37,004 bases of DNA, from positions 1 to 37,004 of the IMG/VR virus record IMGVR_UViG_3300028920_000160; one strand, 5' to 3'. This DNA comes from a virus. The notes below the pieces were generated by a model. It had not been told where the DNA came from. It ran no database searches and was given only the letters and a program-made list of their open reading frames with translations. Both the position numbers and the translations under genes were made by a program. How positions within the stretch are numbered: position 1 is the stretch's first letter; the number at the start of each line of letters is the position of its first letter. Shown here piece by piece: positions 780 through 37,004 of this stretch.

Positions 780-852
780 TAGCGGGGATCGGACTTGAAC
801 CGACGATCTCCGGCTTATGAGGCCGGCGGGATACCATCTTCCCCACCCCACA
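780..852 (-). tRNA. tRNA-Met (anticodon CAT), initiator-like
   Basis: A full 73-nt cloverleaf folds on the minus strand. The D stem is GGGA/TCCC, the D loop AGATGGTA, the anticodon stem CCGGC/GCCGG with loop CTCATAA, the variable loop AGATC, and the T arm GTCGG-TTCAAGT-CCGAT. The acceptor TGTGGGG/CCCCGCT has a U1-U72 mismatch and discriminator A73. CCA is not encoded. An unpaired 1:72 position and purine11:pyrimidine24 (G11:C24) are bacterial initiator hallmarks, and the sequence aligns over its whole length with tRNA-fMet. The three G-C pairs above the anticodon loop are present, but the third is reversed (C31:G39). A lysidine tRNA-Ile (CAT) is the alternative but would have a paired 1:72. 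It lies 8 bp after the coiled-coil gene and before a terminator, so it is probably processed from that mRNA. Confidence 0.95.
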
Positions 853-29726: not shown

Positions 29727-30392
29727 TCAGTAAATCGGATGACCGTCGTATTCGTCCCGGTACTGGTTCTGTCCCGCATGATTTTCCACAGCCGGGGGAA
29801 GGTTGATCCCGTCGGGAATTTTCGTTCCCTGATTGTATTCGGATTTTTCCCTGGGTAACGTCATGTTCCAGCGGATATTCATCCAGTTTCCGGTCGGTCC
29901 GTTTCCGGCTTTGAACCATTCTTCGGTCGGATAATCCATCCCGGTTTTTTTCTTGAATTCCGGTTGAACGAATTTCCTGAAAAATTGTTCGGAGTTCATC
30001 GCCATCCCGTTTTTTGCGGCGTCTGACATCATAGCAAGATAAATTTTGAAATTTCCGTTGACGACTTCACAGGCCATAGCGTACATGATCGCCGGCGTGA
30101 TCCCGGTCAGAATCGGCTGTTCGGTTTTTCGATATCGTGAAGCCTGTTCACGACGTTCTTCCCGTTGTCGGACCCGGATGTCGCCGATCGTGTCGCTGAT
30201 GTGTTCCAGAATCGGAAGCGATTTTCCGTACAGTTTTTTCTTCATGACTTCATTCGCGACGGTCAGAAGAATGTCCTGATGGCTTTTCACTTCGGCGATG
30301 ATATGATCTTTCATGACCGGCGTGTATTTCGCTTCATAGGCGCTTTCAAGATGCGCGATGAAGTCCAGTGTTTTCATCCCCTGGTAGTTCAT
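29727..30392 (-). CDS. Possible helicase loader-like protein
   Basis: The 221-aa protein follows and overlaps (ATGA) the initiator-like gene, the place where lambda-type phages have the helicase loader P. It is helical (DFIAHLESAYEAKYTPVMKD; AEVKSHQDILLTVANEVMKK) with a central conserved-looking ITPAIMYAMACEVVNGNFKI and a proline/asparagine-rich C-terminus. No P-loop is visible, so it is not a DnaC-type ATPase. The assignment is by context; an initiator partner of other kind is possible. Confidence 0.6.
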   Translation of the reverse strand: MNYQGMKTLDFIAHLESAYEAKYTPVMKDHIIAEVKSHQDILLTVANEVMKKKLYGKSLPILEHISDTIGDIRVRQREERREQASRYRKTEQPILTGITPAIMYAMACEVVNGNFKIYLAMMSDAAKNGMAMNSEQFFRKFVQPEFKKKTGMDYPTEEWFKAGNGPTGNWMNIRWNMTLPREKSEYNQGTKIPDGINLPPAVENHAGQNQYRDEYDGHPIY

Positions 30393-31537
30393 AGTTCCCC
30401 CTGTTCCTGTTCGTATACGTCTTGAATCCCCAGCATTTCGCGTCGGCGCTGTGCTTCTTCAGGGGATTCTTCCGGTTGCTGATTATACGTCCCAGTCCGG
30501 TATCGTGTCATAAATTTTTCCATAGGATTATTTTCATCGATGAAGTTCTTCAGGGAATCCGACATCAGGAAATTTCCGATGGACATGAACGGCGAACGTA
30601 TTTCATGGTCCGGGGAATTGTACACCGCTTCATAGTTCCGCAAAGCCTGGGAAATTTCGTCGGTCGAATAGTACGACAGATTATCCTGAATTTGTCCGAA
30701 TGCGGGATGATTCATGATCGACTTACGTTCGGTCGGGAATGCGTTCATGTTCGCCGATTCGGAAATGATGTTCTGAAGGATCGAAGCTGAATGTCGATAT
30801 CGATTCTGCCCCTGGATGGTTTCGGGTTCTTCAGGTAAAGAATAATCGAATCCATAATCGGGATATGACGAAGAAAAATCAGATGGCGCTTGAATAGCGC
30901 CTGGTTCTGTTTTTGTTTCTGAGTTTGTATATGAGTTTGTATATGAGTTTGAATTTGTTATGAGTTTGTTTTGTTTTTGTTCTGTTATGTAGTATGGAGT
31001 ATCGATACCCCTTCGATACCCCTTCAATACCCCATCCCGGAACTGTTTTATGGCATCTAAAAGCTGTGAATCAGTGTATTTCCCGAATAACTGCATCATC
31101 GGGTTCCAGACAATCTGTTCTGTCGTTTCTTCACCGTTCTTTGATTTCGGAGTCCATCGGGCCAAAGGTTCCCGGGGATCGTACAGAAAAAGCGTCAAAA
31201 ATGGTTCTTTGACATTCTTCAGTTCGTCGGCGACTTTCGTCATCGTCTTCCATGATTTGTTTTCGTTGTACTTCCGCCAGTTGATTATTGCAAGTTCCTT
31301 CGTCGGAAGATTGTAAACGATCTTTTCGTCCTGATGGAAACGCTGAAGACCGGACAGAATAGCTTCCTGATTAAGCCCCGTTTCCATCTGGACATGATTC
31401 AGCGATATTTTGTAAATTCCTGATTGAGTCGTGAAGTCGTTCGTCAGAAGATAAACGAACAACAGCTTTTCATTCGGCGTAAGGTCCAGAAGATAATCGT
31501 CCCGCCACATTTTTGTATCAATTGGCCTGTATGACAT
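30389..31537 (-). CDS. Replication initiator-like protein (winged-helix N-terminus) with origin repeats inside the gene
   Basis: The 382-aa protein has a winged-helix N-terminal domain (~1-110): DTKMWRDDYLLDLTPNEKLL (7-26), YLLTNDFTTQSGIYKISLNH and VQMETGLNQEAILSGL, followed by a strand with IINWRKYNENKS, as in DnaD-like and phage initiator proteins. A low-complexity Asn/Ser/Tyr/Thr repeat (~195-210) is encoded by tandem DNA repeats that look like iterons. The C-terminal half is helical. It probably binds the origin embedded in its own gene, like lambda O. AGGAG precedes ATG. Confidence 0.75.
   Translation of the reverse strand: MSYRPIDTKMWRDDYLLDLTPNEKLLFVYLLTNDFTTQSGIYKISLNHVQMETGLNQEAILSGLQRFHQDEKIVYNLPTKELAIINWRKYNENKSWKTMTKVADELKNVKEPFLTLFLYDPREPLARWTPKSKNGEETTEQIVWNPMMQLFGKYTDSQLLDAIKQFRDGVLKGYRRGIDTPYYITEQKQNKLITNSNSYTNSYTNSETKTEPGAIQAPSDFSSSYPDYGFDYSLPEEPETIQGQNRYRHSASILQNIISESANMNAFPTERKSIMNHPAFGQIQDNLSYYSTDEISQALRNYEAVYNSPDHEIRSPFMSIGNFLMSDSLKNFIDENNPMEKFMTRYRTGTYNQQPEESPEEAQRRREMLGIQDVYEQEQGEL
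30920..31033. repeat. Iteron-like tandem repeats, candidate replication origin
   Basis: TGAGTTTG occurs four times at 30920, 30932, 30944 and 30961 within an A+T-rich stretch, the first three at 12-bp spacing with TATA between. Nearby an 11-bp unit (N-TCGATACCCC form) is repeated three times at 31001-31011, 31012-31022 and 31023-31033, the third with one change (TTCAATACCCC). Both lie inside the initiator-like gene. Iterons plus a melting-prone A+T-rich region are the normal build of such an origin; the function is inferred. Confidence 0.6.
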
Positions 31538-31545
31538 GGGTTCTC

Positions 31546-31713
31546 CTAATATTCGATAATTTCTTCAGACATTTCTGAATATTCGATTTCCATTATTTTC
31601 GTTGGTTCATTTATGCCGTAAAATCCAGAAATTTCTTTTCTTGTCTGTTCGATCTGATATTCGTTTTCCACGAATATTTTGACAAAACCATAGTCGATGA
31701 TAAATCCCTTCAT
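31546..31713 (-). CDS. 55-aa acidic protein, unknown
   Basis: A small gene beginning at ATG 31713 with CAGGAG eight bases before it, ending at TAG 31546. The product is acidic (MKGFIIDYGFVKIFVENEYQ ... SEEIIEY) with a hydrophobic beta-like N-terminus and no known motif. It begins directly downstream of the terminator of the structured RNA, so its expression depends on read-through or processing. The next gene's ribosome site overlaps its stop. Confidence 0.75.
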   Translation of the reverse strand: MKGFIIDYGFVKIFVENEYQIEQTRKEISGFYGINEPTKIMEIEYSEMSEEIIEY

Positions 31714-31726
31714 GTTGTCTCCTGAT

Positions 31727-31843
31727 AAAAAAAGCCATAGACAGCGAGTCCGGGAAGGTCAGTCCCGAAGTTCCCCCAGCAATAAGGGAACGAACCCGCC
31801 ATCTATGGCTATTGCTGATTACGTCAGAATGACCAGTTCTGAC
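31727..31843 (-). ncRNA. Candidate structured small RNA with its own promoter and terminator
   Basis: From a start near 31843 the minus-strand RNA folds as follows. A 5' hairpin GTCAGAA/TTCTGAC (31823-31843) begins at +1. A ~12-nt linker follows. P1 is 9 bp (31802-31810 with 31733-31741), and a second 6-bp helix is 31795-31800 with 31743-31748. Inside this are two hairpins: GTTCCC/GGGAAC (31786-31791 with 31770-31775) and CGGGA/TCCCG (31763-31767 with 31751-31755). Seven U follow P1 (31727-31733). This is a three-way junction ending as a terminator. It may be a free sRNA or a cis-acting attenuator/antiterminator ahead of the 31713 gene. Confidence 0.8.
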
Positions 31844-31849
31844 CCTGTT

Positions 31850-31877
31850 ATTATATCGGATTCCTGATTTTTCACAA
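31850..31877 (-). promoter_or_regulatory. Promoter of the structured RNA
   Basis: TATAAT (31850-31855) on the minus strand with TTGTGA (31872-31877) 16 bp upstream, four of six -35 bases. The -35 includes the stop codon of the PP-loop gene. The predicted start falls at the first base of the RNA's 5' hairpin, a common form for stable small RNAs. Confidence 0.65.
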
Positions 31878-32645
31878 TCCACATACCCCGTCACATTCGC
31901 CTAAAAACATATCGAATTGGCTCATGTCTGATTCAAAGTCAATATCCTTTAACGGCTTTCCGGATCGATGCAAATATACTTTGTCTTTCAGTCTGGGATT
32001 GTCCCGAATTATTGCGTCGAATTCCACAGCGTCATTGAATTCATTCGGTGACATTTGTTTCATTCTGTTCCAGAAATTATCGTCATGAAACGGGCATCCG
32101 ATACATGATGATTTCGGGACATTTTCCCATCCCATTTTATCCAGGTAAAATCGACAGTTATTCCGATTCATCCTTGCTTCGATAAGTGGGAATTTATGAA
32201 TCGTATATTTGACCCTTGAATCTTTCATTCTCTGAATTTCATCGGTAGAAATTCCCATCCATATATCGAAAGGGTTTTTCGCTGAAGCTCCTAGTTCTCG
32301 GCATCGTTTTTGAACTGGAATGATTTTGTATTCCTTCGAACATTGCCGGCGTAGCATTGATATTTCCCCGGTAGTTTCGTTTTTTGTGAATAGCGGCATT
32401 GATGCGAAGCGATGTCCATCTTCATTGATTGCGTCATTCCTGATATTTCCATTGCTCACGACTTCTATTTCGAAATTGTGTTTTTTTGAATATTCGATCA
32501 GTCTGTCCAGATGATTATATACTTCCTTCGGCTCCCAGCCTGTATCCGAAAATATAGCTTTATCCGCCCTTTCCAGATCGCCATGTATGGACATAAGAAC
32601 AAGCGCCGTACTTTGTACACCCGCGCCCAATGATATAATTTTCAT
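31872..32645 (-). CDS. PP-loop ATPase, phage PAPS-reductase-like, with Cys pairs
   Basis: The 257-aa protein carries the PP-loop SLGAGVQST (residues 5-13) followed by a hydrophobic helix and FSDTGWEPKEVYNHL (~33-47), the core of PAPS reductase/ATP sulfurylase-type adenylating enzymes. Several cysteines are clustered: RRQCSKEYK (~99-107), SSCIGCPFHDD (~179-189) and the tail ECDGVCGL. The CxxC plus isolated Cys could hold an iron-sulfur cluster. These phage proteins activate substrates with ATP, possibly for nucleotide or DNA modification. It lies directly after the methyltransferase gene. AGGAG precedes ATG. The true substrate is unknown. Confidence 0.82.
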   Translation of the reverse strand: MKIISLGAGVQSTALVLMSIHGDLERADKAIFSDTGWEPKEVYNHLDRLIEYSKKHNFEIEVVSNGNIRNDAINEDGHRFASMPLFTKNETTGEISMLRRQCSKEYKIIPVQKRCRELGASAKNPFDIWMGISTDEIQRMKDSRVKYTIHKFPLIEARMNRNNCRFYLDKMGWENVPKSSCIGCPFHDDNFWNRMKQMSPNEFNDAVEFDAIIRDNPRLKDKVYLHRSGKPLKDIDFESDMSQFDMFLGECDGVCGL

Positions 32646-35319: not shown

Positions 35320-35348
35320 ATAGTAGTCCAGCTGGACTACTGTGTCAA
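35320..35348 (-). promoter_or_regulatory. Operator-controlled consensus promoter of the right operon
   Basis: TTGACA (35343-35348), 17 bp, TACTAT (35320-35325) on the minus strand. Its spacer and -10 contain the perfect palindrome at 35322-35341. The geometry is the same as at 1980-2008, including the TTGACAC before the operator, so both promoters are likely regulated alike. Confidence 0.88.
35322..35341. promoter_or_regulatory. Palindromic operator 2
   Basis: AGTAGTCCAGCTGGACTACT is a perfect 20-bp palindrome. Its core TAGTCC-N4-GGACTA is identical to operator 1 at 1983-2000. It overlaps the promoter -10 and spacer, so the bound protein would block transcription. Confidence 0.85.
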
Positions 35349-36831: not shown

Positions 36832-37004
36832 TTATCCCCCGAAGAAATATCCGCCGACGGCGATTAACGCCATAAGAATGAACCCAGCGACATACCATGC
36901 TTTGTTTACCCCTTCCGAAAATCCTTCCCCCCGCTTTATCTTTTCGACTATGGGATCAAGCGCCTTCAGCTTGTCGTCTACGGCTATAGCGCTGGTATCG
37001 TCTT
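36832..37004 (-). CDS. C-terminal part of the wrap-around coiled-coil/membrane protein
   Basis: This is the second copy of the 3' end of the gene seen at 1-635, here including the true stop TAA at 36832-36834. It carries the C-terminal membrane segment FILMALIAVGGYFFGG. Differences from the left copy change two residues: Ala versus Glu in the membrane segment and Ser versus Arg before it. The amidase gene follows after two bases. Confidence 0.8.
   Translation of the reverse strand, partial: DDTSAIAVDDKLKALDPIVEKIKRGEGFSEGVNKAWYVAGFILMALIAVGGYFFGG
36857..37004. repeat. Terminal overlap, right copy
   Basis: Matches bases 1-148 at 146 of 148 positions. The right copy encodes Ala in the membrane helix where the left has Glu, so the right version is more likely the genuine sequence there. 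Confidence 0.9.

Follow-up and report, generated by a model that had tools for sequence, protein, structure and literature searches.

Late-gene gating in phages by protein antitermination is known, and in the Q-dependent late gate of lambda (PR'-6S RNA-tR') a promoter and a short terminated RNA precede a long operon. RNA gates placed directly before replication initiators are, to our knowledge, found in few systems, of which P4 is one. In riboswitches, in amino-acid attenuators, and in the attenuators of plasmids pT181 and pIP501, the leader can form mutually exclusive helices of which the later one is a terminator, and these two plasmids control their replication by an attenuator together with an antisense RNA. 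In satellite phage P4 (CI/seqA-seqC), RNA-controlled premature termination occurs ahead of the replication genes, and in the Gifsy-1 IsrK locus a phage promoter is followed by a short structured RNA with an intrinsic terminator, with readthrough into a 45-aa ORF and a regulated gene; alternative folds of IsrK control the translation in trans of an antirepressor (PMC4825925). The put RNA of HK022 consists of two adjacent stem-loops (~70 nt) and acts on terminators located further downstream (PMC9378689).

The element described here is encoded on the minus strand of a 37,004-base phage genome (referred to as the window, the whole stretch of DNA that was analysed), between a PP-loop/PAPS-reductase-like gene and a 55-aa ORF, behind which come a DnaD-like replication gene and then packaging genes. 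With a probability of roughly 0.55, we consider it to be a regulated transcription attenuator of the terminator/antiterminator type that would gate the replication operon of this tailed phage, and we file it as an attenuator-type phage leader RNA with no Rfam membership. The Gifsy-1 IsrK locus, the P4 immunity RNA, and lambda PR'-tR' are the closest known designs. IsrK displays the most similar order of parts, including a leader with alternative folds and an ORF of 45 rather than 55 aa, but in the window it is the terminator stem itself that the competing helix overlaps, and a replication initiator is encoded behind it; the window RNA was not found to be related to IsrK in sequence. The P4 immunity RNA is the most similar in place and role, whereas its antisense RNA is processed from the transcript and the present design relies on an intrinsic terminator of 20-26 bp with no Rfam match. 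With lambda PR'-tR' the element has in common a promoter and a short terminated RNA followed by a long operon; here, however, the RNA can form a competing helix, replication genes come first in the operon, and the scan of genes revealed no Q-like one. Relative to known terminator/antiterminator leaders, the element differs in having no known aptamer or leader peptide, in its very long branched terminator, and in its association with a phage replication operon.

A direct terminal repeat of 148 bp (1-148 and 36857-37004) makes it probable that the genome in this record is complete and either circular or circularly permuted. The phage carries contractile tail genes (sheath, baseplate) as well as TerS, TerL, and portal genes, and a search for a close named relative found none. 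A capsid-protein scan yielded ten phage records with structural genes up to 60-80% identical to those of the window (capsid 59-80%) and with different early and replication regions. Over positions 7613-27792 of the window, identity of the head and tail genes to those of G001-G010 reaches 60-80%, and TerL, replication, and early genes have been exchanged, which amounts to strong mosaicism. No family match was obtained for the 55-aa ORF. A phi29-type pRNA was rejected as an identity for the RNA, since the phage has its own TerS/TerL and the RNA carries a terminator. The features of the locus are collected in Table 1.

Table 1. Coordinates of the RNA element and of its neighbouring genes in the window.
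Feature	Position	Strand	Remarks
PP-loop/PAPS-reductase-like gene	31872-32645		
-35-like hexamer TTGTGA	31872-31877	-	Consensus match only; overlaps PP-loop gene stop codon
-10 hexamer TATAAT	31850-31855	-	16-nt spacer from -35; start predicted near 31843
5' hairpin	31823-31843	-	7 bp, GTCAGAA/TTCTGAC; 7-nt loop CUGGUCA
Alternative helix, 5' strand TCAGCAATAG	31809-31818	-	Touches terminator stem
20-bp terminator stem, 5' arm AGCCATAGATGGCGGGTTCG	31791-31810	-	
Alternative helix, 3' strand TTATTGCTGG	31776-31785	-	Within terminator loop
First internal hairpin	31770-31791	-	GUUCCCUUA-UUGC-UGGGGGAAC
Second internal hairpin	31752-31766	-	GGGA-CUGACCU-UCCC
20-bp terminator stem, 3' arm CGGACTCGCTGTCTATGGCT	31733-31752	-	
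U7 tract	31727-31733	-	Predicted 3' end of ~117-nt RNA
55-aa ORF	31546-31713	-	First gene past terminator; ATG at 31713; Shine-Dalgarno AGGAG 31723-31719
DnaD-like replication gene	30389-31537	-	Presumed controlled gene; phrog_6251 E 2.5e-31, phrog_1701 E 1.8e-23

The 117-nt RNA (31843-31727, minus strand) has a folding energy of -54.7 kcal/mol. A nearly identical 121-nt stretch gave z = -6.1 against dinucleotide shuffles, none of the 200 matching it; across the genome, scanned on both strands in 10-nt steps (7,378 windows), no 117-nt segment folds better than this locus. Its central part is an uninterrupted 20-bp helix (AGCCATAGATGGCGGGTTCG/CGGACTCGCTGTCTATGGCT, RNA positions 34-53/92-111) made up of 16 Watson-Crick and 4 G-U pairs, and a helix of at least 20 bp arose in none of 2,000 shuffles. 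The terminator loop holds two branches of 9 bp and 4-7 bp, and, as in an intrinsic terminator, the G+C-containing stem is directly followed by the U tract. That this is a real structured terminator RNA is almost certain. The loop of the second internal hairpin complements that of the 5' hairpin over 5 bp (p ~0.008), which could represent a kissing contact that stabilises one of the folds or could be where a further copy of the RNA binds.

A first-pass annotation of this DNA had proposed a complete RNA-gene layout on the minus strand, all elements of which were found in place: TTGTGA-N16-TATAAT, a 7-bp hairpin beginning at the predicted start, two internal hairpins (the two branches of the terminator loop), and seven U followed by the AGGAG of the downstream gene. 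Its 9-bp closing helix and inner 6-bp helix, listed there as separate, are actually one continuous 20-bp helix, and both the alternative helix described below and the loop-loop complement were absent from it. The comparison of fold energy with shuffled sequence that it had proposed came out in its favor, and both its description of the locus as a previously unrecognised structured RNA and its option of a riboswitch-like attenuator are supported by the lack of an Rfam match, the shuffle-proof fold, and the same terminator/antiterminator design in two relatives.

The promoter-like site scores 10/12 and its placement, 7 nt ahead of the 5' hairpin, fits; the match alone is not significant, because that half of the window contains 23 sites of this type where 20.3 would be expected. 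A 30-codon ORF (31802-31710, minus strand) spans the terminator and ends in a TGA that overlaps the start codon (ATG) of the 55-aa gene. Leader-peptide attenuation via this ORF was set aside, since it lacks a Shine-Dalgarno and the relatives were not found to have a counterpart. A second open frame through the RNA spans 31607-31894 on the same strand.

The segment that touches the 5' side of the terminator stem can pair with part of the terminator loop (TCAGCAATAG/TTATTGCTGG, RNA positions 26-35/59-68), giving an alternative helix of 10 bp of which 8 are Watson-Crick. The two helices have bases in common, and a pseudoknot combining them was judged sterically impossible, there being no linker to span 20 bp, so that they are mutually exclusive. 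The helix pair has the anatomy of a terminator/antiterminator pair. In predictions for the growing RNA, transcripts of 68-98 nt mostly adopt the alternative helix, and those of 104-117 nt the terminator instead. The antiterminator-constrained fold of the full-length RNA reaches -33.6 kcal/mol, leaving the terminator fold ~20 kcal/mol better, and a strong effector would therefore be needed. The loop complement at the exact position touching the stem has p = 0.004 in the window, under a null that was set after the window had been seen.

A helix of equal quality, 10 bp long, appears somewhere in 8% of shuffles, and the alternative helix taken alone is only suggestive. The locus could be a plain, very strong intrinsic terminator insulating the early genes from the replication/packaging operon, in which the competing helix is accidental and the downstream genes have their own promoter, for which a promoter-like TTGATA-17-GATTAT lies downstream (31521-31493). 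Fold and U tract support a terminator well. However, the other terminators of the window phage have stems of 5-10 bp, 20 branched bp being unnecessary for termination; a promoter directly ahead of an insulating terminator would be pointless; and the loop complement is found again in two relatives (G008 and G009), likewise in contact with the stem at that position. We consider an insulator of this kind unlikely.

These relatives emerged when long stems that end at T runs were searched for blindly, first in the six records with most sequence and then in all loci; this search found the window, G008 (L303 16480-16575), and G009 (L309 3469-3562 = L082 5686-5779). Both have structural genes in common with the window phage, and in both the element likewise lies just before the replication operon, the order being element, 66-aa ORF, and Lin1244_N/replication-initiation-like gene in G008 and element, HNH gene, and DnaD-like gene in G009. 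Each element possesses a 5' hairpin, a long stem (25 and 26 bp, respectively), and U7, with fold z-scores of -7.6 and -6.5, and the energies of the terminator and antiterminator-constrained folds (-72.5/-49.5 kcal/mol for G008, -80.0/-55.6 kcal/mol for G009) rank as in the window. Perfect complements between the stem-touching segment and the loop are present in G008 (AGGGACAG/CTGTCCCT, p 0.010) and G009 (CCTGGGA/TCCCAGG, p 0.005) and, having been found after the window, constitute an independent test. As in an attenuator, the upstream strand can thus form a helix that excludes the terminator at all three loci, where the complement lies within 2 nt of the stem although 70 nt were searched. In 3.17 Mb, a U tract was found together with a stem ≥18 bp long and a loop complement ≥7 bp long only in the window, G008, and G009.

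Clear members number only three, two of them with common flanks. The element is absent from G003, G004, and G005, yet these have structural genes in common with the window, and no promoter-like site of at least 9/12 was found at the G008 element. A loop pattern based on G008 and G009 gave 16 matches, of which only these two were true members. BLASTP produced no alignment between the 55-aa and 66-aa ORFs, and the idea of their homology was dropped.

The sole Shine-Dalgarno-like bases ahead of the ATG in G008 (AAGGGG) and G009 (GAGAGG) sit in the 3' arm of the terminator, unlike in the window, where the Shine-Dalgarno lies outside the stem; stem opening in these relatives would therefore activate transcription along with translation. 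This favours RNA refolding over a put- or Q-type antitermination site, at which polymerase would be modified and would then ignore later terminators, as polymerase modification alone would leave the bases locked in the stem. The element does lie between early and replication/packaging genes, its order of promoter, short RNA, and terminator resembles lambda PR'-tR', and it is, like HK022 put, a cis-acting phage RNA near a promoter with two hairpins. Put RNAs, however, are two stem-loops of ~70 nt with no terminator of their own (PMC9378689) and act on polymerase at a distance, an organisation that was not found here. The put/nut-like site proposed in the first-pass annotation has no positive support: a strong terminator closes the element, and the scan of genes, some small proteins of which have no assigned family, revealed nothing N- or Q-like; we regard an antitermination site as highly improbable.

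Alignment of G008 and G009 by their flanks revealed a 5' domain ~90% identical, a conserved U7-ATGTCAGAA junction, and an identical TTTTTTTATGTCAGAA; the 5' domain, examined as a possible aptamer, is absent from the window RNA. Among the 24 stem pairs, 12 are unchanged, 6 are changed on one side and 5 on both sides with pairing kept, and 1 is broken, so that 11 of the 12 changed pairs still pair, 5 of them via double changes. Sequence inspection indicated that changes at paired positions of the 5' hairpin also keep pairing. This pattern of substitutions supports the stem as an RNA structure in the G008/G009 pair. A hand-made structural alignment of the window with 4 gaps, which is an illustration and not proof, keeps all 20 pairs, with 10 double changes to G008 and 5 to G009. 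Compensated stem pairs, the kind of covariation put forward earlier as a check, are thus seen between the two relatives; no sequence homologue of the window RNA itself was found in the sequences searched. The conserved 5' part next to a replaced terminator part may have arisen when entire replication cassettes recombined, and not by stepwise change.

Occurrence of the same design in different letters before the replication genes of two relatives suggests that the element is probably an on/off gate, for which we infer termination by default and regulated readthrough into the genes controlled. Transcription would start at the promoter-like site or run in from the early genes, and the nascent RNA would first form the 5' hairpin and the antiterminator helix. 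Once the last arm had been made, the far more stable 20-bp helix would displace the antiterminator and RNA polymerase would stop at U7, producing the ~117-nt RNA by default. A signal holding the antiterminator or occupying the loop would permit readthrough into the 55-aa ORF and the DnaD-like gene, possibly extending to the terminase and structural genes behind; candidate signals are an antisense RNA, a protein, the host state, or the small RNA itself.

The terminated RNA might instead be the regulator, a trans-acting phage sRNA like P4 CI RNA or Gifsy-1 IsrK that pairs with its own nascent leader or with another phage mRNA and keeps the replication genes off. Such a role would suit the promoter-like site, the 5' hairpin at the start, the U7 end, and the complementarity of the loops CUGGUCA and CUGACCU, and the IsrK order of promoter, sRNA, terminator, 45-aa ORF, and regulated gene is alike (PMC4825925). 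However, its best complement to other phage transcripts, including the downstream transcript as expected of an IsrK-type sRNA, is 11-12 nt, the same as in shuffles; no Rfam family matched, phage antisense RNAs included; and no integrase, which would have pointed to lysogeny, was found among the genes scanned. We consider a trans-acting function quite unlikely. The stand-alone sRNA suggested previously is compatible with the locus as a terminated product, but no excess complementarity to other phage transcripts was found. In a further alternative, with pT181/pIP501 as the model, an antisense RNA made from the opposite strand would act on the attenuator. This would also account for a terminator/antiterminator leader preceding a replication gene, and a plus-strand promoter-like ATGACA-18-GATAAT (31531-31560) points through the element. 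This site is, however, one of many chance-level matches and no good plus-strand terminator was found beyond the element; we consider antisense control of this type very improbable.

Searches for the element by sequence and by family model gave negative results. Rfam 15 covariance models at gathering threshold returned only tRNA for the whole window and no match over the L303 region; the best match at the locus (E<=10) was the plant miRNA MIR5200, with 18 bits against a gathering threshold of 70, and the families of P4/P1 antisense immunity RNA and phage antisense RNAs gave no covariance-model match. The first-pass annotation, which had called for the Rfam search, likewise could match the RNA to no known ribozyme or riboswitch consensus. 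No sequence homologue was found by blastn in phages, nor with covariance model R1, applied to 2.25 Mb of loci and to ten close phage records, and a 15-mer pattern from the RNA gave chance matches only. Baiting viral contigs with the 55-aa and DnaD-like proteins, and genome contigs with TerL and capsid, produced no matches, and nine other named phages with related replication genes showed ordinary short terminators only.

It is their architecture, and not their sequence, through which elements of this kind are found, and a recurring element with no Rfam match, whose form is kept as its letters change, would offer a testable RNA timing device for phage replication as well as a structural search pattern for what sequence-based surveys miss. 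More speculatively, and with doubts of our own, the three loci might represent a new class of phage RNA gates travelling as a cassette with the replication-initiator gene, in which a phage-specific 5' domain is joined to a long branched terminator of 20-26 bp and the letters turn over almost completely, with the base pairing, the antiterminator complement next to the stem, and the U7 junction remaining fixed. If so, letter turnover could set specificity between phages, e.g., self-recognition by the terminated RNA.

Several other structures were noted during these searches. In Tenacibaculum phage JQ (L335 2173-2220, region 2147-2220), a 10-bp terminator precedes a 78-aa ORF and a DnaD-like gene, and the upstream leader contains a strand (AGCATCCTAC) that is a 10-bp perfect complement to the loop, this strand being 27 nt away; the fold is not significant (z -1.4), and the element is a possible further attenuator, to be taken as a lead only. 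An unrelated phage record (L133 2169-2308) contains a nearly perfect inverted repeat of ~31 bp, flanked on either side by T/A runs, that probably belongs to a mobile element or forms a bidirectional terminator. Two records of phages with a PP-loop gene (L031 973-1086 and L035 2142-2255) have in common a terminator-like stem of 12-13 bp with an adjoining 9-bp loop complement (AAGTGTAAC), which may lie within coding sequence.

Elsewhere in the window, a tRNA-Met (CAT) gene (780-852, minus strand) has a promoter-like site nearby (887-858) and adjoins a 363-aa gene of unknown family with two homologues in G009. A 16-bp palindrome, TAGTCCNNNNGGACTA, is present in two perfect copies (1984-1999 and 35324-35339); a repressor gene to match was not identified in the phage. 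Each copy overlaps a good sigma-70-like promoter on the minus strand (2008-1980 and 35348-35320), and the palindromes are probably operators of a phage repressor.
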